Source of the DNA: Paenibacillus sp. JZ16
Lineage (GTDB): Bacteria > Bacillota > Bacilli > Paenibacillales > Paenibacillaceae
Length of the DNA stretch: 64,000 bases
Reading direction: 5' to 3'
Assembly (NCBI RefSeq): GCF_015326965.1
Contig: NZ_CP017659.1
Span: forward strand, 1,674,001 to 1,738,000
The first letter of the stretch is position 1; the number at the start of each line of letters is the position of its first letter. A program made the translations under genes and the position numbers. Under the pieces are notes generated by a model. That model saw only the letters and a program-made list of their open reading frames with translations, was not told where the DNA came from and did not search any database. Positions 39,516 to 56,088 of the stretch are shown here, in pieces.

Positions 39516-40624
39516 GCAGACACCTCCTTCGCAGGAGACGGCGCTTCACCGAGAGGAAATACCTGAATCGTGTGCCCATGGTCCCGAAAACGCTGAAACA
39601 TCTCTTCCAGCCTGGGACTGACGTAAGTGCTTAGAATGAGGATATCTCTAGCCTCTTCATGCCGGGACAGTTCAGAGGCCAGATAATCATGAAAAGAAGC
39701 CTTTCGGGTCAGCTCCAGTCTCGCCAGCATTTCAAATATCAGATGCTGCTGTGTCATGCCGCCTGCAACCGGGACGAATGCTTCATCGGTTGAATCCTCG
39801 CCAAGCGTTCCGTTTGTTCCCATTCCGATCTCCATGCCCTGCGATAATAAATGAGCTGTAATGCCCGCTGCCAGTCGGATGCCATACTCGATCGGCTCGG
39901 GCCGCGTCGCTTTGCTCCACATCTGCTCATGATCCTCTATATTCAGATAGATCAAGAGTCGGCTGTCCGCTGTGGTATCCCGCCTGTGGACCTGCAAGAT
40001 GCCCGTCCGTGCGGTCGCTTTCCATTGAATATCCTTCAGCGGATCGCCGTCCCGATATTCGCGTACGCCTGATATCAGGAAAGGATCCTCCAAGATCCAT
40101 CTTCGCACCAGCATTTCGCCCATCCAGGTCTGGACCGGGAGGGCCATGTCCGACACATCCATCGGCATCGGGTACACGATAATGCCACCGGATAACGTCT
40201 TGCTCTGGACAATCGACTCCATTCCGACCAGATCCCCCGTCGTCATCGATACCGTACCCAGCTTGTACAGACCTCTGCGCTTAGCGGTAATCCGATGTCT
40301 GCGAAGGATCTTGGTCCATGGCAGAAGACTGAAGAAGCTCTTGTGGTTCTGATTGAATTGCCCCTCACTGATATCCAGGTTCAATTGATTATCAAATGCC
40401 AGCCCCGAGCGGAATTGGGATTCTACTCTTAACCAGGGCACAGGCAGCGCTTTGCGGTTCTCAATGATTTCGATCAATTCCACGGAATCTCCCTCATAGC
40501 AGGTCGACACCTTGAAGGAACGGCTGTAGTTCAGCTTTTTGAGTGCCGTCCGTTTGAAAATCTTGCCCTGCACAACGATGACCACAGCGGCGATTAACAA
40601 TATCCAATAGGCTCCCATCGCCAT
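39512..40624 (-). CDS. DUF58 (vWA-like) protein of the MoxR operon
   Basis: A 370-residue protein with one or two N-terminal hydrophobic helices (ILLIAAVVIVVQG) and the DUF58 core: FLISGVREYRDGDPLKDIQWKATARTGILQVHR, then a vWA-like fold with LLIYLNIEDHE. It works with the MoxR ATPase, 7 bases upstream, probably as an envelope chaperone/activator system. The target is unknown. Confidence 0.9.
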   Translation of the reverse strand: MAMGAYWILLIAAVVIVVQGKIFKRTALKKLNYSRSFKVSTCYEGDSVELIEIIENRKALPVPWLRVESQFRSGLAFDNQLNLDISEGQFNQNHKSFFSLLPWTKILRRHRITAKRRGLYKLGTVSMTTGDLVGMESIVQSKTLSGGIIVYPMPMDVSDMALPVQTWMGEMLVRRWILEDPFLISGVREYRDGDPLKDIQWKATARTGILQVHRRDTTADSRLLIYLNIEDHEQMWSKATRPEPIEYGIRLAAGITAHLLSQGMEIGMGTNGTLGEDSTDEAFVPVAGGMTQQHLIFEMLARLELTRKASFHDYLASELSRHEEARDILILSTYVSPRLEEMFQRFRDHGHTIQVFPLGEAPSPAKEVSA

Positions 40625-40631
40625 CCGCCCC

Positions 40632-41612
40632 CTACGACGAAATGCCTTCTTCTGTCGGTACGGGAACCTGCTGCAGCAGCCGTTCGATCACTTCTTCCGC
40701 CGCGGCCGCACCGCCGCGGCTGTGAAGCGTCCCTCGAAGCTTCAGCCGATGCGCCCATGTCGGCACAGCCAATTCCTTCACATCATCAGGGGTAACAAAC
40801 TCCCTGCCCTTCAGGACGGCTTGTACTTGCACCGCCTTCAATAAGGCTTGGCAGCCCCTTGGGCTTACGCCCGAGGCAACCGCCTCATCCCGTCTTGAAT
40901 GCTCGGAAAGCGCAACGATATAGGATAACATCACATCACTGACATGTACTTTGCTGACGATATGTCTGGCTTGTACGATCCGCTCAGACGTTGCAATCGC
41001 CATTAGAGACTCCAAGGGTTGATCATCTTTAAATCGCTTCAGAATATTCACGCTTTCCTCTGAGGTAGGGTATCCCATATTCAGTTTAAACAGAAAGCGG
41101 TCCAGCTGTGCCTCCGGCAGCGGAAACGTTCCTTGCTGTTCCAGCGGATTTTGCGTCGCGATCACCAAAAACGGCTCTTTCAGCTGATGGGTTACACCGT
41201 CAATGCTGATCTGGCGTTCCTCCATGCACTCCAATAAACTGGACTGCGTACGAGGTGTCGCCCGGTTGATTTCATCGGCTAGAAGGATATTCGTGAACAG
41301 AGGACCCGGACGGAATTCAAACGTCGCGGATTGTTGATTATAGAAGTAGATGCCGCTCAGATCCGACGGCAGCAAATCCGGCGTGAACTGTACTCTCTTA
41401 AACGTGCAATCAATCGACTTCGAGATGGATTTGGCCAGCAATGTCTTGCCTGTACCCGGCACATCCTCCAACAGAACATGACCAGAAGTGACCATAGCAA
41501 TAAATAGTCTGTCAATCAGCTGCTCTTTACCTACCATAACTTTGGAAACGTTTGCTCGAATGTCGTCGGCAAGACGGCGAACGCCATGATAATCTATAGT
41601 AATTGTAACCAC
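40632..41612 (-). CDS. MoxR family AAA ATPase
   Basis: A 326-residue ATPase. Walker A VPGTGKT (52-58), Walker B ILLADEINRATPRTQSSLLEC, the sensor region IATQNPLEQQGTFPLPEAQLDRF and the C-terminal lid are all canonical. It energises the DUF58/DUF4129 partners. The only ordinary start in reach, GTG 41612, overlaps AAGGAG. An ATT at 41603 lies 8 bases away; TAA blocks extension upstream. The start is therefore ambiguous. Confidence 0.93.
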   Translation of the reverse strand: MVTITIDYHGVRRLADDIRANVSKVMVGKEQLIDRLFIAMVTSGHVLLEDVPGTGKTLLAKSISKSIDCTFKRVQFTPDLLPSDLSGIYFYNQQSATFEFRPGPLFTNILLADEINRATPRTQSSLLECMEERQISIDGVTHQLKEPFLVIATQNPLEQQGTFPLPEAQLDRFLFKLNMGYPTSEESVNILKRFKDDQPLESLMAIATSERIVQARHIVSKVHVSDVMLSYIVALSEHSRRDEAVASGVSPRGCQALLKAVQVQAVLKGREFVTPDDVKELAVPTWAHRLKLRGTLHSRGGAAAAEEVIERLLQQVPVPTEEGISS

Positions 41613-42805: not shown

Positions 42806-43738
42806 TCATGTAACGGCTCCGCTAGTCATCTTCTTCAGAGTCTTGTTAATCCAGATCGCAGCCATTGCGCCTTCCCCCATCGCCACGGTGGTTAATTCGG
42901 AATGGACGCCCAGGTCACCCGCGGCCCAAAGTGACTCGACACTCGTCATTTTGGACCTTGGATCGGTCTTGACATGACGGTTGTGCTCCAGCTCTGCCCC
43001 CAACTGCTCGGCCAATTCGGAATGGATCATATTCCCGCCAAAAGATAGGAACCCCCGCTCCGCAGGCACGATGCTCCCATCCTCCAACACAACGGCCGAT
43101 AGGATGCCGCCTTCCTCACGAATTTCCGACACCTTTTTCTCTATATACGGAATCCCGAGCTCCGCCAATTGGGACATATGCTCGGAAGAAGCCGGCTCCC
43201 CCTCATGATTGATGTAGATGATATCCTGGGTTCGCTCCGATAGCAGCACAGCCATACTGGCACCGGGATCACCTGATCCCATTACGACGGTCTTGCGATC
43301 CTGAATTTCATAACCATCGCAATCAGGACATACAAAGACGGATGTGCCCAGCGTGGGCATCAGGCCTGGCAGCTGGGGAAAACGGTCCATCACGCCTGTT
43401 GCGAGCAGCAAGGTTTTGGCCCTGTAATGAACTCCATCTTTACCAGTTAACACAAAATACTCCGATTCATCCCGTTCCGCCTTCCGGATATCATCGGCTG
43501 CAAACGTAACGCCGACAGATTCCGCCTGCAGGCGCCCCCGCCCCCTGAGCTCTTCACCAGAGACCCCATCTGGCCATCCAAGGATATTGCGGTAACTCTT
43601 GCAGATGGTGGACCGCCCCGTTCCCCGGTCGATCACCAGGACATCATAGGCAGAATACCGCCCCAGCTGTATAGCCGCCTGCAGACCTGCAATTCCGCCG
43701 CCAATGATAATGCAATCCTTCACTTCGGTATCCAACAT
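42806..43738 (-). CDS. Thioredoxin-reductase-like FAD/NAD(P) oxidoreductase
   Basis: A 310-residue flavoprotein with the FAD site IIGGGIAGLQAAI (11-23), a redox pair Cys137-Cys140 (CPDC; the classical enzyme has CATC), the NAD(P) site MGSGDPGAS, and the C-terminal AAGDLGVHSELTTVAMGEGAMAA. It reduces a disulphide partner, but no thioredoxin gene is adjacent and the proline-aspartate pair suggests a different partner. No strong ribosome site precedes the ATG. Confidence 0.88.
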   Translation of the reverse strand: MLDTEVKDCIIIGGGIAGLQAAIQLGRYSAYDVLVIDRGTGRSTICKSYRNILGWPDGVSGEELRGRGRLQAESVGVTFAADDIRKAERDESEYFVLTGKDGVHYRAKTLLLATGVMDRFPQLPGLMPTLGTSVFVCPDCDGYEIQDRKTVVMGSGDPGASMAVLLSERTQDIIYINHEGEPASSEHMSQLAELGIPYIEKKVSEIREEGGILSAVVLEDGSIVPAERGFLSFGGNMIHSELAEQLGAELEHNRHVKTDPRSKMTSVESLWAAGDLGVHSELTTVAMGEGAMAAIWINKTLKKMTSGAVT

Positions 43739-43860
43739 GTAGGTTTATCCACTCATTTCTATATCGAATTAAGCGCAAGAACTCTTTGCTTCAAGATATA
43801 CTTCAAGAAGAGAGGTACACCCTAAATATTTAACCAATCTGCCGTGATTTACTCCTGAAA

Positions 43861-43894
43861 AATCAAATAGACCCCGGCACACAGCGCCGAGGTC
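43861..43894 (-). terminator. chrA terminator
   Basis: GACCTCGGC..GCCGGGGTC on the minus strand followed by UAUUUGAUUUUU, 12 bases past the stop. Confidence 0.7.
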
Positions 43895-43906
43895 CAAACC
43901 AATGAA

Positions 43907-45136
43907 TTACAGGAGAAGCTGTCCGGCTAATGCACCGGCAATCACAACAAGCCACGGAGGGCTCTTCCAGAACATCAGCATCCCGAACAGCCCCGCGCCG
44001 ATCACAAATTCAAGCGGACTGTGGATGGAGGATGTCCATATGGGATGGTATAGAGCAGCCAGCAGAATCCCGACCACTGCCGCATTCATGCCCGTCAGCA
44101 AGCCTTGCAGCTTAGGGTTTCTGCGGATGCTGTTCCAGAAAGGCATGGCCCCTACGATAAGCAGAAATCCAGGCAAAAAGATAGCCAGTGTAGCCATGAT
44201 ACCTCCAGGAATCCCCTGAATCAAGACCCCGAGGTAAGCGGCAAAAGTAAATAACGGACCGGGTACTGCCTGTGTTGCTCCGTAACCCGTCAGGAAATCC
44301 TCTTTAGACATCCAGCCGTTCAGCACCGTCTCATTCTCCAGCAGCGGGAGAACGACGTGCCCTCCGCCGAATACTAGCGATCCGGCTCGGTAGAAGCTGT
44401 CCACCATGGCTACCCAACCGTTATCGGTCAACCCTTTAAGGAGCGGCAGACCCACTAATAACACAACAAACAGGCCCAAGCAAAAGAGTCCGGCTCTCCG
44501 TCCGATCGGCATCTTTATCTCGGGTGCTGCTTCTTCGTTCGCTTGACGCTTGAACAACCACAGTCCCGATAAGCCGGCAAGAGCGATGACCGTCACTTGA
44601 GAAATGGGACTCTGCCACAGCAGAACGACTGCCATGGCTATTAACGCTATAGCCGCCCTTACAGGGCCTGAGGCCAGCTTTCCTGCCATACCCAGAACCG
44701 CCTGCGCCACGATGGCCACTGCGACAATTTTCAGCCCTTGAATCCAGCCTGCCGAGCCGGGATCGAAGGTTTGCATCAAATAGGCGAAGATCATAAGCAT
44801 GAGTACGGACGGTAATGTGAAGCCAAGCCAGGCGACGATGCCGCCCCAGATGCCCGCTCGCATCATCCCAACTCCAATACCCACCTGGCTGCTGGCGGGT
44901 CCGGGAAGAAATTGGGCCAGGGCCACCAGATCCGCATAGCTTTTTTCGTCCAACCATTGCTTGCGGCGCACATAAGTCTGGTGGAAGTATCCAAGATGTG
45001 CGATCGGTCCGCCAAACGATGTGAGCCCCAGCTGCAGAGCGGTCCACCAGGTTTCGCCGAGGGCACGCCACCTGCCAGAGGGCTGCCTATTGCCAACTTG
45101 AGCTTGAACTTGTTCTTTGTCTGTCTCCGGATTCAA
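43907..45136 (-). CDS. chrA: Chromate transporter ChrA, two-domain
   Basis: A 409-residue CHR-family protein with two homologous halves of about six helices each. The N-half has LTSFGGPIAHLGYFHQTYV, VALAQFLPGPASSQVGIGVG; the C-half has LVFGGGHVVLPLLE and GYGATQAVPGPLFTFAAYLG. Family members expel chromate. The start is TTG at 45136, with GGAG 9 bases upstream. A single gene. Confidence 0.92.
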   Translation of the reverse strand: MNPETDKEQVQAQVGNRQPSGRWRALGETWWTALQLGLTSFGGPIAHLGYFHQTYVRRKQWLDEKSYADLVALAQFLPGPASSQVGIGVGMMRAGIWGGIVAWLGFTLPSVLMLMIFAYLMQTFDPGSAGWIQGLKIVAVAIVAQAVLGMAGKLASGPVRAAIALIAMAVVLLWQSPISQVTVIALAGLSGLWLFKRQANEEAAPEIKMPIGRRAGLFCLGLFVVLLVGLPLLKGLTDNGWVAMVDSFYRAGSLVFGGGHVVLPLLENETVLNGWMSKEDFLTGYGATQAVPGPLFTFAAYLGVLIQGIPGGIMATLAIFLPGFLLIVGAMPFWNSIRRNPKLQGLLTGMNAAVVGILLAALYHPIWTSSIHSPLEFVIGAGLFGMLMFWKSPPWLVVIAGALAGQLLL

Positions 45137-45329
45137 TATTCATCGCTCCCCATATGCTTGGTGTCTTGTAATAGAAATCGTAAACCCGTTAACCGTTAAG
45201 TATACAGGTCATCTTTATCAAATTTCAGAGTATACCAAACTCTCATGATCAATCTACCCATTTATGTAAACGCTATGTAAAATCTAAAGAATTTTGAGTG
45301 ATATCGTGTGAAATTCCGCTATATGTACT

Positions 45330-45375
45330 AAAAAAAGAACGACCCAGCTGAACTTATGTCCATGGATCGCTCTTC
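45330..45375 (-). terminator. Terminator of the CynX-type MFS gene
   Basis: AGAGCGATCC..GGGTCGTTCT on the minus strand followed by seven U. Confidence 0.75.
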
Positions 45376-45421
45376 TGTTCCTATTCAATGTATGCGCCAC
45401 TTTTATGTGACTTGTATAACG

Positions 45422-46651
45422 TTAAGCCTCCGGCTTCGTTTCGTTCGGCACGGACAGATACCCTGGTTTCGCAGCGCCAAAACCAAAAATGAACAATACA
45501 ACGACAATGGCGGATAATACCGCCAGAGGCACCTTCCATCCGCCTGTCGCATCATGCAGGAAACCGATGAGCAGCGGACCTACAGCAGCCAATAAATAAC
45601 CCAGCGACTGGGCCATACCGGATAAAGCGGCAGCTTCTTGAGCCGATTTCGTACGAAGGGTAAAGAACATCAGGGATAAACTGAAATTGGCCCCGCCTGA
45701 AATACCTACCAGCATCACCCATAGCAGATTTAATGAAGTCAGGCCAGAAAACAAGCCTGCATATCCGGTCAGCATAGACAAGGCAGAGATCGTCACCAGC
45801 ATGCGCTGATTGGGATTCCTCCCAGCCAGAACAGGAATAATAAAGGAGAATGGCAGGCTGACAAATTGGAGAATCGAGAGCATCCAGCCCGCGGCACTAT
45901 AATCCATGCCTTGGCTTCTTAGAATCTCGGGCAGCCATGAGATGTTCACGTAGAACGTAAACGATTGAAGACCCATGAATAAAGTAATGTACCAAGCAAG
46001 CGGTGACCTCAGCACACTCTGATGTTTGGTAGCAGCCGAACTGACCTCAGCGGTTCTTCCGGAGCTCCGGCGCTGGATGATCCATACGATGAGAGCCAAG
46101 ACGGATAACGAACCCCAAATTAATAGGGACCCTTGCCAACCAAGACCTGCTTGGGTAGCCAGCGGCACGCTGATCCCGGATGCGATCGCGGCGAGCAGGT
46201 TCATCGAAGCAGAGTACGTCCCCGTCATCAATCCGATATGCCGCGGGAAATCCCGCTTGACCAGACTTGGAAGCAGCACGTTCCCAACGGCTATAGCCAT
46301 TCCGAGAAATGCGGTACCGATTAACAGCGTATAAGGGGATGATATCGAGCGGATGCCGATGCCAAATGTCAGCACCACCATACTTAGTAAAAGAGTAGTC
46401 TCCAGCCCCCATTTTTTAGCCATGGCCGGTGCCATTGGCGACAATAAAGCAAAGGCTAATAGCGGCAGTGTAGTGAGCATACCCGCCAACGTGTTCGAGA
46501 TTCCCGTATCGTCGCGGATGATCCCGATCAGCGGGCCAACCGATGTAATCGCCGCTCTCAGGTTAATGGCAATCAGGATAATACCTGCAAACATCATCCA
46601 TGTGCGCCCGGCGGAAGTTGTGTTTTGATCTATTGATGTTCTTGATGTCAT
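45422..46651 (-). CDS. MFS transporter, CynX/NimT family
   Basis: A 409-residue 12-helix transporter. INLRAAITSVGPLIGIIRDDTGIS and the LLTTLPLLAFALLSPMAPAMAKKWG segment in its first helices match the CynX/NimT (cyanate/nitroimidazole) class. AAGGAG lies 8 bases before the ATG. The single gene ends in a terminator. Substrate is unknown. Confidence 0.88.
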   Translation of the reverse strand: MTSRTSIDQNTTSAGRTWMMFAGIILIAINLRAAITSVGPLIGIIRDDTGISNTLAGMLTTLPLLAFALLSPMAPAMAKKWGLETTLLLSMVVLTFGIGIRSISSPYTLLIGTAFLGMAIAVGNVLLPSLVKRDFPRHIGLMTGTYSASMNLLAAIASGISVPLATQAGLGWQGSLLIWGSLSVLALIVWIIQRRSSGRTAEVSSAATKHQSVLRSPLAWYITLFMGLQSFTFYVNISWLPEILRSQGMDYSAAGWMLSILQFVSLPFSFIIPVLAGRNPNQRMLVTISALSMLTGYAGLFSGLTSLNLLWVMLVGISGGANFSLSLMFFTLRTKSAQEAAALSGMAQSLGYLLAAVGPLLIGFLHDATGGWKVPLAVLSAIVVVLFIFGFGAAKPGYLSVPNETKPEA

Positions 46652-46680
46652 GACATGAACTCCTTACTTTCAAGCGATAT

Positions 46681-46719
46681 GTAAAAATAAACTTATCCGA
46701 GTTTATCACAAACCCGGAT
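46681..46719 (-). terminator. Likely terminator of the second AloR-like gene
   Basis: ATCCGGGTTT..AAACTCGGAT (46695-46719) on the minus strand is followed by AAGUUUAUUUUUAC. Confidence 0.6.
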
Positions 46720-46817
46720 ATTAGGCTATAGCCTCGGGAAGCTTCATGGCAGCTTATAGGGCCAGTCTGTCGCCTATTCAGCGTTGTACATTAACCTGTA
46801 GACGCACGTATAGAGCC

Positions 46818-48197
46818 CTACACAAGTGGGCTCCAAGCATACACGGATAACTTTTGGACATCACGAATGAATTCATTATACCGTTTCTGTATTTCCTCGG
46901 ATGCGTACTGACGGAACTGCTCGAAGATCCCCATGCACCGCAGCATCCCGTTATCACTTTTGGTTCTTATCGAATACTCGAGGCTGTCCAGGATATAGGA
47001 TAACCCCCGATCATACTGTTTAGCATTTAAATAGTATATCCCTAACTCGGCGAGGAGGCGGGTGTACCGGTTTAATGTGACCTGATCGCTAACCTTTCCA
47101 AGTTGATTTTGCTGCGATCTATAATGCAGATGCTCTTTAAAGCGTTCCAAAATTGGATCAACCTGAAGTTGATAACGATTAGCTGCGACCATGATATTGC
47201 ATAGAGCTAGAAAAATCTCATCATTTCTTGATTCAACATAATCTACATACTGATTCAGAGAACCTGGCTGCCCACTCATTAAACCATACATATATCGATT
47301 AGCCTCAGCCCATTCGCTGAACTGCTCCAAAATCAGAGATTCCTCTTGGCTCGGATTTATTACCCAATCTGGTTTATCATACAATGATACATAGTGGAGA
47401 GCATGATCGTAATCACCTCGTTCTTGATACACAAATGCCTGAATTAGGTACGAATATAGTAAATAAAAAAGAAGAGGTCTCTTTGGAAATTCAAGCGATT
47501 CAAACGTATCTCTATTTTGCTGATAATGAATTCTGGCTTGATGTTCCATTCTTTTGGCTAGAGCTTCGATTTTACCCATTCGCTGCAAAGATATATTTAA
47601 ATTAATAAGCTTAACTAACGCATCCAATTGATAGATTTCATCTAACCTATCAATATAAGGCTCAAAGTATACAGCTGCTTGTAAATTTTCCTCTTGGTTC
47701 TCACCTAACCTGATTAAGAATAGTCGATACTGGCAAAGAGCTAACCGTTCGGAATACTGAAATTTTTCACACTCGGCAACGCACTCGTATAACAAAGCTG
47801 CGGCTTCACGCTTCTCCTCGTTGAATAAGGTCTCCGCCATATCAAAAAGCATCGGTGCGTAGTTAATGTTTTCCATCGTCATTCGTGCAGCTCTATGCAA
47901 ACAATCCAATTTATCCAGTTCTGCACATCGCTCAAGAAAAGGTCCAAGCCTTCGCCAATCCGGAGTCGTATGAAAAATGCTTTCCGTTATGTAAAGTTCG
48001 TAGAAATGCCCCTCTTCCAGACCCATCCCTTCGGTTATCCGGTCTAACTGGTGCATGGACATGGGACGATTCCCATTCAGGATATTACTAAGTGTCCCGC
48101 TGTTAATACCTGATATCCTGGCAAATTGGTTGATTGTCATATGATGATTCTGCAAATATCTAACTATTTCTCCGCGAATCGTGGCTGTCGTCTCCAA
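46818..48197 (-). CDS. HTH-TPR peptide receptor (AloR-like), orphan copy
   Basis: A 459-residue regulator. Residues about 5-65 form an Xre-type helix-turn-helix (MTINQFARISGINSGTLSNI, then NGNRPMSMHQLDRIT), and the rest is a TPR-like helical array of the RRNPP type that binds a short peptide. It is closely related to the gene at 48513. The start is TTG at 48197, aligned with that paralog. No pro-peptide gene follows it. It has its own promoter carrying the shared CCAARTATTAGTATA motif and may be an orphan that listens to the neighbour's peptide. Confidence 0.88.
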   Translation of the reverse strand: METTATIRGEIVRYLQNHHMTINQFARISGINSGTLSNILNGNRPMSMHQLDRITEGMGLEEGHFYELYITESIFHTTPDWRRLGPFLERCAELDKLDCLHRAARMTMENINYAPMLFDMAETLFNEEKREAAALLYECVAECEKFQYSERLALCQYRLFLIRLGENQEENLQAAVYFEPYIDRLDEIYQLDALVKLINLNISLQRMGKIEALAKRMEHQARIHYQQNRDTFESLEFPKRPLLFYLLYSYLIQAFVYQERGDYDHALHYVSLYDKPDWVINPSQEESLILEQFSEWAEANRYMYGLMSGQPGSLNQYVDYVESRNDEIFLALCNIMVAANRYQLQVDPILERFKEHLHYRSQQNQLGKVSDQVTLNRYTRLLAELGIYYLNAKQYDRGLSYILDSLEYSIRTKSDNGMLRCMGIFEQFRQYASEEIQKRYNEFIRDVQKLSVYAWSPLV

Positions 48198-48221
48198 GTA
48201 ACAACACCCCCAGATGGAAAA

Positions 48222-48277
48222 CCAAGTATTAGTATAGTAAATAATTACATGCTATTATTTTACATTCGTTTGGTCAA
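48222..48277 (-). promoter_or_regulatory. Promoter and operator-like motif of the orphan AloR-like gene
   Basis: On the minus strand TTGACC (48272-48277) and TAGCAT (48249-48254) with 17 bases between. Downstream, 48222-48236 on the plus strand reads CCAAGTATTAGTATA, matching the paralog promoter in 14 of 15 bases at almost the same distance from the -10. Confidence 0.65.
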
Positions 48278-48325
48278 TAGTGATAATGAATTGCTCTTTT
48301 TTTATAATTCGAAAAATACATTAAT

Positions 48326-48367
48326 AAAAAGAAGATAGTCCCTCGTTTTTCAGGAACTATCTTCTTT
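48326..48367 (-). terminator. Terminator after the pro-peptide gene
   Basis: AAAGAAGATAGT..ACTATCTTCTTT arms with CCT/AGG on the minus strand, then UUUUAUUAA. It ends the receptor-peptide unit before the next promoter. Confidence 0.75.
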
Positions 48368-48409
48368 AAGATATCTTTAGTACCAGTATTATCACTGTAT
48401 CCTAACTTA

Positions 48410-48550
48410 TTAGCTTCCGACACCATGATCATGTGATAATGTTGCCCGATGTGTCGGATCTAACAGATCCGCATTGTTTGAAATAACGGGTAATGTTATT
48501 AGCATTACAATACTAAATGTAGCTAGTAGACAAGCCAATTTTCTTTTCAT
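48410..48550 (-). CDS. Secreted signalling pro-peptide (AloP/Phr-like), 46 residues
   Basis: An ATG at 48550, preceded by AGGA six bases away and GAGGTG a little further, opens a 46-residue frame. It has a basic start (MKRK), a hydrophobic core (LACLLATFSIVMLITLPVI), then a hydrophilic tail ending SHDHGVGS. This is the plan of Phr/AloP pro-peptides that are exported and cut to a 5-8 residue signal. As I recall, one P. polymyxa Alo signal is SHGRGG, so a tail fragment such as SHDHGVG is a fair guess. The gene overlaps the receptor's 3' end by 38 bases, the Rap-Phr arrangement. Confidence 0.8.
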   Translation of the reverse strand: MKRKLACLLATFSIVMLITLPVISNNADLLDPTHRATLSHDHGVGS

Positions 48551-49901
48551 TTAAATCCTGCACCTCACTTACTAAAGTTTTATAGCGTTTCTGACATTCA
48601 TACGAAGAAAAATCGCGAAACTGTTCAAATAATCCCATACATCTTAGCATACCCCTGTTACTATTTATTGTAATAGATCTGTCTAAACTTTCCAATATAA
48701 ATTGTAAACCTTTGTCGTAATTTTTTGAATTCAAATAATATATTCCTAATTCAGACAAAAGTCGGGTATATCTTTCAGTATTAACTTGTCGATTAATGGT
48801 GCCTATATTACTTGATTGATCTTTAAGTATTAAATACACCTCAAAACGTTCCAATATTTGTTCTACGTTCAAGTCAAAACGATTGGCAGCGATCATAATA
48901 TTACACAGTGCAGTGAAAATTTCATTCTCTCTGGTCGAAATGTATTCTACGTAATCAGTTAAAACCTCAACTTGTCCAACCATAAGCTGGTAGAGATATT
49001 TATTAGCCTCTCCCCAGTCCTTAAACTGATTGATAACCCGAAGTTCATCTATAGAAGGCTCAGTAACCCAGTCAGGATTCATATATAATGATACATAGTA
49101 TAATCCTTGCTCATAATTTCCTCTTTCTCGACAAACATTTGCTTGAATTAATTGAGCGTACAAAATATAGAATATTAAAGGTTTCACCTCTCCTGCCTCT
49201 AGATCATACATTTTCACATCATTCTGATACTGAATCTTTGCTTTACTACCCATTTTTTTAGCTAATTCTTCAACTTTATCCCATCGATTTAGCGATACAT
49301 TTATATTGATCAATTGTCTTAATGCATCCAACTGATACATTTCATCTAAACGATCCACAAACGGCTCAAAATAAACGGCAGCCTGCAAGTTTGCATCCTG
49401 ATCATCTGTGAGTTCTAATACAAACAACCGATACTGACAAAGGGCCAACCGCTCCGAATGCTGAAATCGTTCACTCTCCGCCACACTTTTATACAGCAGT
49501 ACAGCCGCCTCATGTTTTCCCTCTTTGAAAAAAAGCTCTGCCGTTTCAAAGAGTAAGGGGGAATAAGAGATATTATCCATCGTCATCCGGACAGCCTTGT
49601 CCAAACAATTCAGCTTCCCCAGCTCCGCGCATCGGTGAAGAAACGGACCCAGCCGACGCCAATCCGGCGTAGCATGAAAGATGCATTCATCTATATACAA
49701 CTCGTAAAAATACCCCTCTTCCAGACCCATACCTAACGTAATCCGGTCCAACTGCTGCATGGAAATCGGACGGTTCCCATTCAGAATGTTGCTGAGTGTG
49801 CCGCTATTGACCCCCGATATCTCAGCAAATCGATTAATCGTCATTTCGTGCTTATGTAGAAACTCTTCCATTTGTTCGCGAATCGTGGCTGTCCTTTCCA
49901 A
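48513..49901 (-). CDS. HTH-TPR peptide receptor (AloR-like), paired with a pro-peptide
   Basis: A 462-residue RRNPP-type regulator. An Xre-like DNA-binding domain (MTINRFAEISGVNSGTLSNI, NGNRPISMQQLDRIT) is followed by repeated helical hairpins across residues about 90-440. It aligns over its full length with the gene at 46818. The frame is open to 49931, but the paralog alignment and GAGGGTGG upstream point to TTG at 49901; the longer form would overlap the operator-like motif. The 3' end overlaps the pro-peptide gene. The gene is A+T-rich compared with the rest of the window. Confidence 0.88.
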   Translation of the reverse strand: MERTATIREQMEEFLHKHEMTINRFAEISGVNSGTLSNILNGNRPISMQQLDRITLGMGLEEGYFYELYIDECIFHATPDWRRLGPFLHRCAELGKLNCLDKAVRMTMDNISYSPLLFETAELFFKEGKHEAAVLLYKSVAESERFQHSERLALCQYRLFVLELTDDQDANLQAAVYFEPFVDRLDEMYQLDALRQLININVSLNRWDKVEELAKKMGSKAKIQYQNDVKMYDLEAGEVKPLIFYILYAQLIQANVCRERGNYEQGLYYVSLYMNPDWVTEPSIDELRVINQFKDWGEANKYLYQLMVGQVEVLTDYVEYISTRENEIFTALCNIMIAANRFDLNVEQILERFEVYLILKDQSSNIGTINRQVNTERYTRLLSELGIYYLNSKNYDKGLQFILESLDRSITINSNRGMLRCMGLFEQFRDFSSYECQKRYKTLVSEVQDLNEKKIGLSTSYI

Positions 49902-49927
49902 GCTAACACCACCCTCTAGGATCGAAC

Positions 49928-49986
49928 CCAAATATTAGTATATTTCTCTATACAGTAATCATATTGATTAATATTCCAGCGGTCAA
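49928..49986 (-). promoter_or_regulatory. Promoter and operator-like motif of the AloR-like/peptide unit
   Basis: On the minus strand TTGACC (49981-49986) and TATGAT (49958-49963), 17 bases apart. The motif CCAAATATTAGTATA lies at 49928-49942 on the plus strand, just inside the transcript. Its counterpart at 48222 suggests a common regulator, probably the receptor itself. Confidence 0.65.
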
Positions 49987-50096
49987 TACTTATTTACGTC
50001 ATTTTTTTACAAAAAATAACCAATACAATTTAAAAATGCCAAAATCAGCACTTTTCTTTACTATTTATATATCGTCATATGGATCACTACGATGAG

Positions 50097-50128
50097 AAAA
50101 AGCGCTCCGAAATTTTCGGAAGCGCTTT
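50097..50128 (-). terminator. Terminator of the first VanZ-family gene
   Basis: AAAGCGCTTCCGAAA/TTTCGGAGCGCTTT on the minus strand, then UUUUU. Confidence 0.8.
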
Positions 50129-50193
50129 GAAAGTTGGATTACACCTTAACGACCCTGACTTCAATCAAGTGCCGTTACTTACTATATACTCTC

Positions 50194-51483
50194 CTAGCTC
50201 CTTCTTGCCTGAATTAAGGTGAACCAATCCGAATCCCCATTAAATACACCGTGTACTCTGTATACAGGCTGATAGAAGCCCTTCGTGTCATATATAAACG
50301 TAAGCTCAATTCCTGTTATATCTAGTTGGTCACCTTTTTTAATGACGAGTTGATCAGGCTTTAATATTGCATTTCTTTTGATTTGAGGAAATTCTCCATC
50401 CTTGATACGCTCATATACCTCTGCAGGAGACAGGATATCTACTTCCTTAATGAATTGATTCTCTTGGATCCCGTTATTTATCGAGTAGATACTGCCATCT
50501 TGTTTAAGACCGAGTAACAATTCGCCAGTCCAGTAACTTTCGGTTAACCCCGCTTTATCCGGGAGGGTCCATTGAAATTCTCCGTCCTCCAACGCTGTAA
50601 CATCAGCCTCTTGGGGGAGTATGCCAAGATCGGCCATCATGATTTTGGCTTTTGAGAGCAGCGGTTCTTGGTCAGCGAATGAAGCCCGATCTGGTACATA
50701 ATTGTTCTCGGTTAACGACCAGTTCCCCTCTTGGGATTGATAGAATGTATATGATGTTCCTGATTTGTCTTCCATTAGAACCTCACGATCGCCGCCTCGC
50801 TCCTTAACCTTCAACACAGATAATCCTAACTTTTGCTGCAGCAGGGCTTCTACACTATCCCGCTGAGTGATTTTCTTGTATACGGGGGCGACCGCAGGTA
50901 CCGAGCTTAGCTGAAGGGATGTTGTCACTTCAACATCTGTCATATTCCATTGGGTATATGTGTTTATGGCCAGATTGCCGAACTCCTGTTGGGAATACAC
51001 AATATGCATACCGACAAAAAACAAACCCATGATCAGAGGTATCGCCAGGTTTCCCAGCAGACTTTTCATTCTGACTTTTTTGTTATGAAAAATGGAAGCA
51101 GCAAGTCTGTATAACTGATATCCAAAAATACCACCAAGCGTGTTGTTCATGATATCAGCAAGCTCAAACAGCCCTGCCCCTGACAGCGTCTGGTAAGTTT
51201 CAATAAAGAGCGTAGAACCTACAACGACTAGAAGCAGCCACTTAAATGCTTTACATTTTCGACTGATAAAAGGCAGCAATATTCCCATCGGGATAAACAT
51301 GATGATATTAAATATACCGTTCTGAAGATCACGTAAGGAATACTTGTTCCATGCTTCAACATAATCGCTGAATGGATGGAGATTCATCTGCAAGAAATGA
51401 GAATTGCCGCGGCCCAACATAGTTAGCTCGAGTACAAATACAACATATCCGATAAACAGTGCGCCAAGAAAAAGCTTTTTCAT
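50194..51483 (-). CDS. VanZ-family membrane protein with C-terminal external domain
   Basis: A 429-residue protein. A VanZ-like membrane part spans residues 1-170 (five helices; LHPFSDYVEAWNKYSLRDLQNGIFNIIMFIPMGILLPF in consecutive parts, and the FIETYQTLSGAGLFELADIMNNTLGG helix). A large external domain follows with YycH/YycI-like repeats (LMADLGILPQEADVT, PVYRVHGVF). VanZ proteins lower teicoplanin sensitivity by an unclear route. It is the last gene of a module with an ABC transporter and a two-component system. Confidence 0.82.
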   Translation of the reverse strand: MKKLFLGALFIGYVVFVLELTMLGRGNSHFLQMNLHPFSDYVEAWNKYSLRDLQNGIFNIIMFIPMGILLPFISRKCKAFKWLLLVVVGSTLFIETYQTLSGAGLFELADIMNNTLGGIFGYQLYRLAASIFHNKKVRMKSLLGNLAIPLIMGLFFVGMHIVYSQQEFGNLAINTYTQWNMTDVEVTTSLQLSSVPAVAPVYKKITQRDSVEALLQQKLGLSVLKVKERGGDREVLMEDKSGTSYTFYQSQEGNWSLTENNYVPDRASFADQEPLLSKAKIMMADLGILPQEADVTALEDGEFQWTLPDKAGLTESYWTGELLLGLKQDGSIYSINNGIQENQFIKEVDILSPAEVYERIKDGEFPQIKRNAILKPDQLVIKKGDQLDITGIELTFIYDTKGFYQPVYRVHGVFNGDSDWFTLIQARRS

Positions 51484-51517
51484 TTGAATCCGTGGCTTTC
51501 CCTCTGATTTTTGTTTT

Positions 51518-51616
51518 CTATAAATATAACCCGATTAGAACGAATTCGATCCCGATAATTAATATGACCGGCAGCATTAAAATACGTAGATTCGTATAGA
51601 TTGCATCGATCCCCAA
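51518..51616 (-). CDS. Small hydrophobic membrane peptide, 32 residues
   Basis: A TTG at 51616 has AGGGGG 8 bases upstream and opens a 32-residue frame: a short GIDAIYTNLR start then one membrane helix (ILMLPVILIIGIEFVLIGLYL). The unusually good ribosome site and the clean helix argue for a real micropeptide, possibly a partner of the adjacent FtsX-type permease. A 21-residue frame (51630-51695) just before it is less convincing. Confidence 0.5.
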   Translation of the reverse strand: MGIDAIYTNLRILMLPVILIIGIEFVLIGLYL

Positions 51617-51697
51617 GACGAGGTCCCCCTTATGACTTTATTCTAATGATGGTTGACACTGTCTTTCCTTGCAGTTTCAAGTCAGAGCCGGTCATTT

Positions 51698-54289
51698 TTA
51701 TATACTCTCCTGCTTTAACGCGTCGATAATGTTTTCCTTTTTTACTTTCGCGCTGGAATATAGCATGGCAGAACCGACAATGACAAATACAGCGGCAATG
51801 ACAGACAGAATACTCATCCAGGGAAGGACGAATCCGTAGCTAAATTTGTTCACAAATGCCTTATAGATCACATACATCACGATGAAGCTGATAGGAAGCC
51901 CGAACAGCAGTGATTTGGCCCCATAAACAACACTTTCGTAGTTCATCATTTTCGCAAAGCCTTTTGGCGTCATTCCAACGGATTTCAGCATCGCAAATTC
52001 CCGCTTTCGAAGGGAGATGCTCGTTGAGATCGTATTAAAAATATTCGCAATCGAAATCACGGAAATTAATACGATAAAGCCATAAGAAAAGACGGACATC
52101 AATAGTATCATCTGTTCTTCCTGTTTTCTGGATTGGTACAAATTGTACGCATACAGATTAGGCTCTTTCATATCTTCGATCTCCTGCTGCGTTTTCAGCG
52201 GGTCCGCACTTTTCAGATAGAGAAAGGTTTGAACGAACTCCCCGCTCTTATCGTCTGCCAGTTGATTCAGGACCTGTTCCGAAACGACTATATTTAGCCC
52301 GCCTGTTCCGACTAAGCTCATCCCCATCGGAGATCGATCCGTCAACGCCGCAATGTACACTTTACTTACATCCGTCTCTTGCTCCGTTTCCTCATAGATC
52401 GTTGTCAAATCGAGACTTTGTCCAACATTTGCATGAATAGCCTTCTTTCGGACATATTTTCCCGTATCCATATCTTTATTATCGATCGTATCGATCACGA
52501 TGGCGGCGGGATGATCCGGATCCGTCAGTGACTCGTAATCTGCGCCGACTGCTTTGGCATAAGCCCGCAGGTTCGAATCATTTAGTGCAGCGATTTTAAT
52601 ATCATAAGGATATTTTCCGTCCTTCAGCATGCTCTTATCCTTCTTGACCGCCTCCTGCAATTCATCGGCGATGGACGCTTCTTCGATCCAAGCGTTCCTG
52701 TACAACTCATGAATCACGCTGTATTCCGACACATCCGAAAGGGATGCAATGGATTGAACCAACCGATCGTCTATTCTTTTTTCATTGCCGTAGGATAGCT
52801 CAATATCATAATTGACGCCTTCCTGCGACATGGCCAAGGATTGTTTCAGATTGCTGGTAAAAAATGATACCGTTAAAAACAGAACGATGCTGATCACGAG
52901 CGAGAATACGGTGGCATGGTACCTCCGCTTGTTCCTTTTTAAGTTTTTCAATCCGATCTCCGCTTCGATTCCGAAGAGCTTTCGAATCCATTTCGATGTT
53001 TTCACGGTTTTGCCCGTAAGCTTCACATCGGTTGTTTGGCGTATCGCATCCATGGCGGAAATCCGGGATGCTTTGACGGCCGGGTAATACGTCGAAATGA
53101 AAATCGTCAACATCGAAACAGCGAAGGTAATCAAAAGCGATAACGGCGTGACGATTACCGTTAGCTTTTCAGTAATTCCTAAAGCTCCTTGTATTGTAGC
53201 GTTAATAAACTGAAAAGTAATGCCGATCCCGGCAAGACCGCATAGGATTCCAACAGGAATGCTGATCAAGCCAATAATGACACCTTCAAAAAACACCGAA
53301 TTTCTCTTCTGCCTTTTTGTAGCCCCCACGCTTGCCAGCATCCCTAAATGGCGGGAACGTTCCGAGACGGAAATCGCAAAAGCATTATAAATGAGCGAAA
53401 CCGAGCCGATCATAATAACCGCGATCAGGATCACCGATAATGAGAACATCGTGCTGTACGAAGCTTCGCTTTTGGAGACGCCATAATAATGAAGCAAATC
53501 GTGATGATATTGGACCGTTTCGATATGGTTGTCCTTTGCCAAATTTGCCGCATGAGCGAATAAGGACTGATTGACTTTTTTCAAGACCACCGCCGCATGG
53601 ACTCGATCGTTTGCCCCCATGAGGTTTTCATCGACATAGCTAATGGTCGTATACCCCGGGGCCCACGCCGGTTCCCATACGGGATGCTTGATGAAGCCTA
53701 CCACCGTGTAATCCCTTGTCGTTATATTTTGCAGCGTTTCGTTCTTTTCGTTATCTACGAAACGCAGCGATTCGGTTTGATCCAGCGGTTGATCGTTCCC
53801 TACTTCGAATCGTTTGCCGATGCGAAGGGTAAGACGATCCCCAATTTCATATTTCACCTTGGCGTTTGTCGCAACGGCTTCAGAAATCACAACTTCCTTG
53901 TCCGTTTGCGGCAGACGCCCCTTGCTCAATTCAATTGGAAATTGCGCTAAACCCTGTGCATCGTACGCCTTGATGAACAAATACGGCTTATTTGTATTTT
54001 GTCCCCCTTCTAATGGGGCATAGCCAATATCCTTGGTGATTGCAAGGGTCTTGGTTGCATCATCGTTTTTTATCGCTGCAAGCTGTTCCTTGTTGACATC
54101 TTGGTATAGGACATGCCATTCCCCTTCATCCGCGATGGTTTGCCTTTTCATTAAATCCAAGTAAGAAAAACCAAGCGTTGCAACAGCCGTCACCATGGCA
54201 ACTGACAACATGACACCCAGAATGGTTACAAGCGTTCGTCTCTTGTTTTGCCTCAAATGTCTGACGGTGAGTTTATTGACAATATTCAA
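51698..54289 (-). CDS. ABC transporter permease, FtsX type with two domains
   Basis: An 863-residue permease. An N-terminal helix is followed by a first external domain, three helices (FtsX core near residues 280-410), another helix, a second external domain, and a C-terminal FtsX core (LISVISIANIFNTISTSISLRKREFAMLKSVGM). The layout resembles BceB/Vex-type exporters that handle antimicrobial peptides. It overlaps the ATPase gene by 4 bases and forms a unit with the sensor/regulator pair. Confidence 0.9.
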   Translation of the reverse strand: MNIVNKLTVRHLRQNKRRTLVTILGVMLSVAMVTAVATLGFSYLDLMKRQTIADEGEWHVLYQDVNKEQLAAIKNDDATKTLAITKDIGYAPLEGGQNTNKPYLFIKAYDAQGLAQFPIELSKGRLPQTDKEVVISEAVATNAKVKYEIGDRLTLRIGKRFEVGNDQPLDQTESLRFVDNEKNETLQNITTRDYTVVGFIKHPVWEPAWAPGYTTISYVDENLMGANDRVHAAVVLKKVNQSLFAHAANLAKDNHIETVQYHHDLLHYYGVSKSEASYSTMFSLSVILIAVIMIGSVSLIYNAFAISVSERSRHLGMLASVGATKRQKRNSVFFEGVIIGLISIPVGILCGLAGIGITFQFINATIQGALGITEKLTVIVTPLSLLITFAVSMLTIFISTYYPAVKASRISAMDAIRQTTDVKLTGKTVKTSKWIRKLFGIEAEIGLKNLKRNKRRYHATVFSLVISIVLFLTVSFFTSNLKQSLAMSQEGVNYDIELSYGNEKRIDDRLVQSIASLSDVSEYSVIHELYRNAWIEEASIADELQEAVKKDKSMLKDGKYPYDIKIAALNDSNLRAYAKAVGADYESLTDPDHPAAIVIDTIDNKDMDTGKYVRKKAIHANVGQSLDLTTIYEETEQETDVSKVYIAALTDRSPMGMSLVGTGGLNIVVSEQVLNQLADDKSGEFVQTFLYLKSADPLKTQQEIEDMKEPNLYAYNLYQSRKQEEQMILLMSVFSYGFIVLISVISIANIFNTISTSISLRKREFAMLKSVGMTPKGFAKMMNYESVVYGAKSLLFGLPISFIVMYVIYKAFVNKFSYGFVLPWMSILSVIAAVFVIVGSAMLYSSAKVKKENIIDALKQESI

Positions 54290-54969
54290 GGGCGAATCAC
54301 CTCGTCTTTGGCCATTCTTCCGTCCTCAATCGAAATGACCCTGTCCGCTTGCAAAGCGATTCGTTCGTCATGCGTGATCACGATCAATGTCTGGCGATAG
54401 GTTTTATTCAACATTTGTAATAAGTCGATGATCTCGCTGCTATTCTTGCTGTCCAAATTCCCGGTGGGTTCGTCCGCCAGCATAATGGCAGGATTACTAA
54501 TGACCGCTCTTCCGATCGACACCCTTTGCTGTTGTCCGCCTGATAATTGATTGGGCAGATGGTTTAAACGATGTTGCAGATTCAGAGTCTTCACCAGACC
54601 ATCCAACTGCTTCTGATCTACCTTTTGGTTATCAAGCAAGAGCGGGAGCGTAATATTCTCTTCCACCGTCAGGACGGGAATCAGATTAAAAAACTGGTAG
54701 ATCAGTCCGATTTGTCTCCGCCTGAAGATGGCCAGCTGCGTTTCGTCCAAGTTATACATGTCCGTACCCTCTACGAGGACTTTGCCGCTAGTCGGCCGAT
54801 CCACACCGCCCAGCATATGCAGCAGCGTGGATTTCCCCGATCCGGACGGGCCGATAATCGCGACGAATTCGCCTTTTTGAACCGAAAATGAAATATCGTC
54901 AAGCGCCTTTACCGCCGATTCGCCTGTGCCGTATATTTTAGACAAATGCTCGATTTTTAAAATTTCCAT
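54286..54969 (-). CDS. ABC transporter ATP-binding protein, MacB/BceA type
   Basis: A 227-residue ATPase: Walker [11 protein letters not shown]-loop, signature LSGGQQQRVSIGRAV, Walker B IMLADEPTGNLDSKNS, H-loop VITHDE. The frame reaches 55062, but AGGAG lies 8 bases before the ATG at 54969. It drives the permease that it overlaps. Probably handles peptides, as in BceA-type systems. Confidence 0.93.
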   Translation of the reverse strand: MEILKIEHLSKIYGTGESAVKALDDISFSVQKGEFVAIIGPSGSGKSTLLHMLGGVDRPTSGKVLVEGTDMYNLDETQLAIFRRRQIGLIYQFFNLIPVLTVEENITLPLLLDNQKVDQKQLDGLVKTLNLQHRLNHLPNQLSGGQQQRVSIGRAVISNPAIMLADEPTGNLDSKNSSEIIDLLQMLNKTYRQTLIVITHDERIALQADRVISIEDGRMAKDEVIRP

Positions 54970-55058
54970 TGCCATATCTCCTAAAAGTTTTGTGGGCGTT
55001 ACTTCTTGAATCGACTTCGTACAAAACTCACTTCGGAAGCATGGGCGCCCCTTCATGC

Positions 55059-55994
55059 TCAATTCCAGCTATAAACCATCTCTTTATATCCAACATCCCA
55101 CAGGGTTACATTTCCCTCAATGGTTATCGTAAGCTCATTGGCCTGAGGGAGATAAATGGAGCTCATATCCGGCTCATGGCGTCCGGCTTCTACAGATACA
55201 GTCAGGAACTCATGTCCATCGGCGGTAACCCTAATGCTGCCTCGGGAATCCTCCTGATCGGGAATCCCATAATTCAAAAAGAGGTACACCTCCTTCTTAT
55301 TGCCAAACGTATACGTGTACGTTTCCTTGCTTTTGCCTTCGATGCTGTACACATTATATTGGGGTTCCACGTCTTGACCGCTTATCTTAAGAGTGTTCAG
55401 TTTGGTTCCCGTTGAAAGATTCCCCGTACTATCCCTTAAATCGTTTATCGCTACAAAGGGGCTCATCTCTTTGGTCAACACTTGGTCAACGATCCCAAAG
55501 ACACCCCACACCCCGAGCATAAGGATTAAACCAGAAAAACCGGCATAAACAATATTTTTCCAGTTACTGTTCGTGCGAAAGCCAAGTTTGTACGCCCCGA
55601 AGCCTATGGCTGCCCCAAATGAGTTCTGTATGACATCGTTCATGTCGAAGCTGCCGAGGAATGTTAGCGCCTGAATCGTCTCCAGCACGAGAATGGATAG
55701 GATGAACAAGGTCATAAAGCGAACAAAGCTAGTCCGATATAACAACGGAATCAATATGCCAAAAGGAATGAACGCGGCGATGTTCCCGAAACCCACAAGA
55801 TCCATCAGCGTAGGATGTAGAGGATCTAATCTTGGCAACCTGAAAAAACTGTCAGGCAAAAATATAAAGGTGTACTCGGAGATTTGATCTACCTTACCTA
55901 CTCTGCCGAAAGCGAAAAACAAAAAATAAAGAATAAACAGGGTGTAGAAAATCGTGATAGCAAAAATAATCTGGCGTTGTTGCTTCAAATGCAT
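55059..55994 (-). CDS. VanZ-family membrane protein, second copy
   Basis: A 311-residue VanZ-like protein: residues 1-170 hold the membrane core (FIPFGILIPLLYRTSFVRF, ILVLETIQALTFLGSFDMNDVIQNSFGAAIGFGAY), and residues 180-311 form an external beta-rich domain. GGAGGT lies six bases before the ATG at 55994; the frame is open to 56015. It lies 64 bases downstream of the... sensor kinase and precedes the ABC ATPase by 89 bases. Two VanZ proteins in one module is unusual. Confidence 0.82.
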   Translation of the reverse strand: MHLKQQRQIIFAITIFYTLFILYFLFFAFGRVGKVDQISEYTFIFLPDSFFRLPRLDPLHPTLMDLVGFGNIAAFIPFGILIPLLYRTSFVRFMTLFILSILVLETIQALTFLGSFDMNDVIQNSFGAAIGFGAYKLGFRTNSNWKNIVYAGFSGLILMLGVWGVFGIVDQVLTKEMSPFVAINDLRDSTGNLSTGTKLNTLKISGQDVEPQYNVYSIEGKSKETYTYTFGNKKEVYLFLNYGIPDQEDSRGSIRVTADGHEFLTVSVEAGRHEPDMSSIYLPQANELTITIEGNVTLWDVGYKEMVYSWN

Positions 55995-56088
55995 GGTCGT
56001 ACCTCCATCGTTCATCTGTTGAATATCATTTTATCTGTCTAAAATGACTTTTCAGTGACGATGAAGGTGACAATTCAGTCACTTACGA

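Follow-up and report, generated by a model that had tools for sequence, protein, structure and literature searches.

Closest described systems

PlcR-PapR and NprR-NprX each consist of a receptor with an HTH and TPRs, followed by an exported pro-peptide that carries the signal at its C-terminus, and the AimR-AimP (arbitrium) system also combines an HTH-TPR receptor with a signal gene downstream. In Rap-Phr a TPR receptor is followed by a pro-peptide gene; to our knowledge Rap proteins lack an HTH. The Alo systems were described in Paenibacillus polymyxa ATCC 842, with 16 receptors (PMC7425212). In that paper, nine of the 14 AloP peptides of ATCC 842 were detected as secreted fragments, and the hexamer SHGRGG of AloP13 acts through AloR13, with Alo13 being an activator. 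Of the 14 homologues that a BLAST search contributed, all except three are followed by a short ORF of 32-50 aa; receptors without a peptide are also already described there (PMC7425212).

Within the window, i.e. the whole 64-kb stretch of the Paenibacillus sp. JZ16 genome that was analysed, positions 48410..49901 (reverse strand) very probably hold an AloR-AloP quorum-sensing pair of the RRNPP class. An AloR/AloP-like pair had been proposed in the initial annotation, and this reading is supported by the layout of the locus, the homology to ATCC 842, the coding-type evolution of the small gene and the C-terminal core that its product shares with other AloPs. The pair is a further member of the known Alo family, and its receptor may already be included in the Alo authors' table of AloR-like proteins (PMC7425212). 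With PlcR-PapR, NprR-NprX and arbitrium it shares the HTH-TPR receptor and the signal gene downstream, and with Rap-Phr the TPR receptor and downstream pro-peptide; unlike Rap, the window receptor has an HTH.

Alo13 together with the adjacent AloR14 resembles the window in the HTH-TPR receptor, the overlapping short pro-peptide gene and the C-terminal hexamer of the xHGxGx type. Both also have an adjacent receptor without a proper peptide gene, AloR14 in the one case and a second receptor in the other. Unlike in Alo13, no spo0E-like gene follows the window pair, and unlike in Alo13/AloR14 the adjacent receptor bears a SVYAW-P tail. A Spo0E output as in Alo13 was considered and rejected, as the nearest of the three SpoOE-like genes in the genome is about 0.9 Mb away.

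Two loci from Brevibacillus show related arrangements. The Brevibacillus phage SecTim467 (L199, 1161-2984) encodes an AloR-type receptor (25.5% identical) and an annotated Spo0E-like gene, with a short ORF that runs across the receptor end and lacks an evident export signal. On the Brevibacillus laterosporus plasmid pBRLA07 (L198), an AloR-type receptor and an overlapping short frame ending YGHGMGG are followed by a Spo0E family gene.

The receptor gene aloR

The aloR-type receptor gene (48513..49901, reverse strand) comprises 462 codons when read from a plausible TTG start codon at 49901, which is preceded by GAGGGTGGTG; the ORF list gives a longer frame starting at 49931. Its product displays the N-terminal HTH of RRNPP receptors as a match to HTH_26 (23.4 bits at a Pfam cut-off of 22), and TPR matches stay below the Pfam cut-off. 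The C-terminal TPR superhelix is predicted by the structural model, which consists of an HTH and paired helices or helical repeats (pLDDT 89.9). NprR, Rap and AimR are among the listed structural matches to this model, with unrelated TPR proteins scoring equal or higher. A phmmer and profile search of solved structures returned weak matches only, namely HTH proteins and a few unrelated ones, and no sequence match to PlcR-PapR or NprR-NprX. PHROGs matches are chiefly to HTHs, and no NCBIfam model reaches its cut-off.

The nearest named loci belong to Paenibacillus sp. EZ-K15, P. lautus, P. glucanolyticus and P. solani, and a protein named as P. lautus is 88% identical to the window receptor. 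The closest named relatives are thus Paenibacillus species, in agreement with the host range of Alo systems (Paenibacillaceae). CUU60_RS27080, encoded on a plasmid of P. polymyxa ATCC 842, shares 42% identity with the receptor across 457 residues (the query, P0034, differs from the window receptor at residues 1 and 457). We infer that CUU60_RS27080 is among the 16 numbered AloRs; an annotated 43-aa frame that begins with a hydrophobic part overlaps its end by 35 bases.

Upstream of aloR, on the same strand, genes for a VanZ-like protein and for the permease and ATPase of an ABC transporter were found (50194-55062). An Rfam scan of 43000-56000 gave nothing at gathering score. With regard to an oligopeptide permease that might import the signal, SBP_bac_5 has 14 matches above cut-off in the genome.

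The aloP gene and its conservation

The aloP-type pro-peptide gene (48410..48550, reverse strand) has 46 codons and encodes MKRKLACLLATFSIVMLITLPVISNNADLLDPTHRATLSHDHGVGS. Its ATG sits within the receptor gene, and 38 bases (48513..48550, reverse strand) serve both the end of aloR and the start of aloP. A likely ribosome site, GAGGTG (48561..48566, reverse strand), lies ten bases 5' of the ATG, and most of the listed relatives have GAGGTG or a near variant at the equivalent place. The 46-aa product contains a hydrophobic stretch (best 11-residue hydropathy 2.69) that may act as export signal. Behind aloP the consensus scan found a terminator-like hairpin (48328..48367, reverse strand) with a 16-pair stem and a T-rich tail; six such sites occur in the window, against 2.6 expected from shuffles. 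The overlap of 38 bases, the small frame's own ribosome site, its putative export signal and the terminator behind it had all been claimed in the initial annotation, and each was recovered here.

The receptor sample was drawn from the matched genomes (74 of 120), seven named loci and 80 stretches of matched genomes, and comprised 123 AloR-type receptors after removal of duplicates; since the 80 stretches represent better-scoring matches only, weak relatives are under-sampled. A peptide gene of aloP type lies behind 77 of these 123 receptors; 76 were picked by a script that asks for HG within the last 14 residues of the peptide behind the receptor, and the one from EZ-K15 was added by eye. The start lies exactly 38 bases before the receptor end in 64 of the 76 script-picked pairs, and HGxG is found near the C-terminus in 67 of the 76 peptides, the remaining nine ending HGG or HGGC. 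The other 46 receptors have no peptide by this rule, which sees only hydrophobic frames with HG, so that Alo peptides of another type would escape it. Two consecutive AloP-type frames at one locus were seen on contig 31 of genome G018 (40569-40706 and 40916-41053; L045).

In an alignment of 25 AloPs, M1, H42 and G43 never vary, and L8, S13, P21 and G45 hardly do. A profile of 25 AloPs, with the window frame among its rows, has a single strong match in the genome (7.42 Mb, one contig; E 1.6e-14), namely this frame; the second-best match (E 0.0025) is near none of the three AloR-type receptors encoded there.

The frame also changes in the manner of a coding sequence. Past the overlap, pN/pS is 0.48 for the aloP frame, compared with 0.87 and 1.26 for the two alternative frames, and changes at the three codon positions number 53, 43 and 83 (15 independent pairs of relatives); over 172 overlapping pairs the value for the aloP frame is 0.58. 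The last seven codons are under no extra constraint compared with the rest (0.45 versus 0.49, 15 close pairs). All these pairs are between relatives, and the strain of the window is in none. The conservation in related genomes, proposed as a check in the initial annotation, was thereby confirmed in both the offset and the type of change.

In P. lautus NBRC 15380, EZ-K15 and genome G046 the overlapping frame is broken; in two of them it ends with the fourth codon, and EZ-K15 has a 28-residue frame without the core in its place. An intact aloP is nevertheless found 169, 183 or 193 bases behind the receptor (L033 1853-1993; L034 6573-6716; L040 4055-4201), with gaggtg in front and ends reading NHGVGT, NHGIGTG and NHGIGTT. 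With the overlapping frame disrupted and an intact one surviving at a distance from the receptor, aloP has been retained for its own sake. The stretch between receptor and detached aloP resembles a decayed receptor 3' end: alignment with the window receptor gives scores of 66-83, compared with 54-60 for the best of 300 shuffles, and against five receptors 11 of 15 comparisons beat all shuffles, the four failures including all three with L044.

The predicted mature signal and alternative readings

The mature signal is probably the hexamer DHGVGS (codons at 48413..48430, reverse strand) rather than the octamer SHDHGVGS. The hexamer was chosen because, counted from the C-terminus, its core is in register with that of the proven signal SHGRGG of AloP13; 27 of the 76 peptides have their core in this register. 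Among close relatives in the protein collection the ends read DHGMGS, EHGLGS and DHGVGS, so that positions 1 and 4 of the signal vary. In the comparison with AloP sequences that had been suggested earlier, the SHGRGG register and the HGxG of 67 of the 76 peptides agree with the window; the peptide of CUU60_RS27080 ends QGYIGGA. Therefore HGxG marks only part of the Alo family. Peptides on other plasmids have ends that include QHGGF, MGHGVGWG and GHGMGG. A degenerate SHGRGG pattern had 15 matches in 14 of 100 genomes of the genus (seemingly without P. polymyxa), none of them in an AloP-like frame.

That the pair is right and the signal another piece, be it the octamer, a shorter or an internal fragment, we consider unlikely. 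According to PMC7425212, some AloPs may yield longer or twice-cut peptides, and the H of the core lies three to eight residues from the end among relatives. On the other hand, the window core has the SHGRGG register just described, and the last six residues are kept in close relatives while the preceding ones vary more, which favours the hexamer.

It is far less likely that the small protein works otherwise than as a receptor ligand, e.g. as a membrane peptide. It is short and hydrophobic, but it is the hydrophobic part that varies, while HG is present at the end of all 25 aligned peptides; moreover, the secretion of nine of the 14 ATCC 842 AloPs as fragments into the medium and the activity of one hexamer (PMC7425212) speak against this reading. 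Still more improbable is that the 46-codon frame is a mere by-product of the receptor coding sequence and no gene at all. It does overlap the receptor end; against this reading stand the conservation and coding-type change past the overlap, the survival of aloP away from the receptor in three genomes, the annotated overlapping gene of like layout in ATCC 842 and the AloP fragments that this strain secretes (PMC7425212).

Receptors without a peptide gene

Behind the AloR-AloP pair lies a tandem AloR-type receptor gene (46818..48197, reverse strand; 459 codons, TTG start), absent from the initial annotation. Its product is 61% identical to the first receptor, no AloP-type frame was found behind it, and it ends in the tail QKLSVYAWSPLV (codons at 46821..46856, reverse strand). 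In a quick tree it belongs to a branch of 14 receptors (SH-aLRT 97), all peptide-less; the tail is present in 13 of them, L043_8794 being truncated. The tail-bearing L044_6498 stands on a long branch outside this group. A hairpin (46694-46720) is located between the second receptor gene and a CynX/NimT-type transporter gene, and a very similar sequence occurs at this place in several relatives.

Across the 14 tail-bearing receptors, no other nine-residue stretch of the protein is as well conserved as VQKLSVYAW (percentile 1.000), and the very last nine residues reach percentile 0.845. VQKL is common to the paired receptors too; SVYAW-P is missing from them. In a separate alignment of 43 rows, 29 are tail-bearing and all 29 have KLSVY-W-P, with pairwise identity averaging 0.69. 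It is the protein sequence of the tail that is kept, since its codons differ between copies. The tail pattern has 17 matches in 10 of 100 genomes of the genus, compared with two for the reversed control, and all 17 are on the same strand as an aloP and 977-3554 bases downstream of it; the copy at 977 bases is so near its aloP that no complete receptor gene would fit between the two. The tail occupies the place where paired receptors have their dual-frame end. In searches of open-licence papers and in passages of the RRNPP surveys PMC10075063 and PMC9765709, we found no mention of this conserved tail.

A loss of conserved residues in the peptide-less group was considered and rejected. The check used 55 columns without any variation among 11 lautus-group receptors and with at least 97% agreement in a further 66; the window row has gaps at 12 of these. 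In the 43 columns that hold residues, all 14 tail-bearing receptors show no change at 34, and nine vary in some. Docking of the tail in the receptor's own groove was not predicted by a model of the monomer, in which residues 451-459 have a mean pLDDT of 44 (modelled protein P0072, whose residues 1 and 208 are not those of the window).

A third AloR-type receptor (L003), 44% identical to the window receptor, is encoded elsewhere in the genome (5602675-5603988). It has no recognisable AloP-type frame behind it, and its orthologues in genomes G046 and G010 have a peptide frame ending NSHGEGGW. In total the genome contains three AloR-type receptors and one recognisable aloP, the profile being blind to other Alo peptide types. 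Another peptide-less branch (L069 and L085, from genomes G054 and G057) adjoins an aloR-aloP pair and ends LSYD[FS]WYWG, also an aromatic C-terminal tail.

Upstream elements and candidate targets

Consensus scanning gave a promoter-like site for aloR, TTGACC-17-TATGAT (49958..49986, reverse strand), and one for the second receptor, TTGACC-17-TAGCAT (48249..48277, reverse strand). Both genes share an upstream element that is a candidate regulator site, ACTAATATTTGG (49928..49939, reverse strand) ahead of aloR and ACTAATACTTGG (48222..48233, reverse strand) ahead of the second receptor. In the 160 bases before the start, TTGACC was found for 9 of 12 tail-less lautus-group genes, for 4 of 14 genes with the tail and for 73 of 97 others; most of the listed positions are near -85. 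The 12 tail-less genes comprise 11 of the AloR-AloP type, detached ones included, and a truncated copy without peptide. ACTAATAYTTGG is present 35-39 bases ahead of the start in 6 of the 12 tail-less lautus-group genes, 5 of the 14 tail-bearing and none of the 97 others. The common element may in part be due to descent by tandem duplication.

A wider regulon was not supported: ACTAATAYTTGG has four exact matches in the genome, two of them at the window receptors, and the other two are at chance level because the reversed control gives three. The shared element sits downstream of the likely -10 box, a position that would suit repression; Alo13, by contrast, is an activator.

Proposed mechanism and implications

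For the AloR-AloP pair with DHGVGS as signal we propose that aloP would be translated from a ribosome site of its own within the aloR end, as its sequence and conservation suggest. By analogy with described systems, the 46-residue pro-peptide would be exported by the Sec route and then cut, and its last six residues, DHGVGS, would act as the signal, in line with the conserved core and with AloP13. As in Alo13 and other RRNPP systems, the signal would re-enter the cell via an oligopeptide permease, bind in the TPR groove of AloR and alter its action on DNA. Because they carry the same upstream element, the promoters of aloR and of the adjacent peptide-less receptor gene would be the likeliest local targets.

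A more speculative extension, which we hold to be fairly unlikely as it stands, is a module that combines one signal with several receptors, in which the fixed aromatic tail (SVYAW-P) replaces the dual-coding DNA and does the work of the signal in its own groove or that of a partner; alternatively, and under the same low expectation, the tail could couple the peptide-less receptors to the paired one. If such a module exists, one peptide would address receptors of different behaviour.

For the AloR-AloP pair itself, DHGVGS represents a testable candidate signal for the P. lautus group, from a pheromone gene that is tucked inside a receptor gene and easy to overlook. The receptors that have no signal gene and have kept nearly everything else offer a natural system for the question of how one peptide may serve several receptors.
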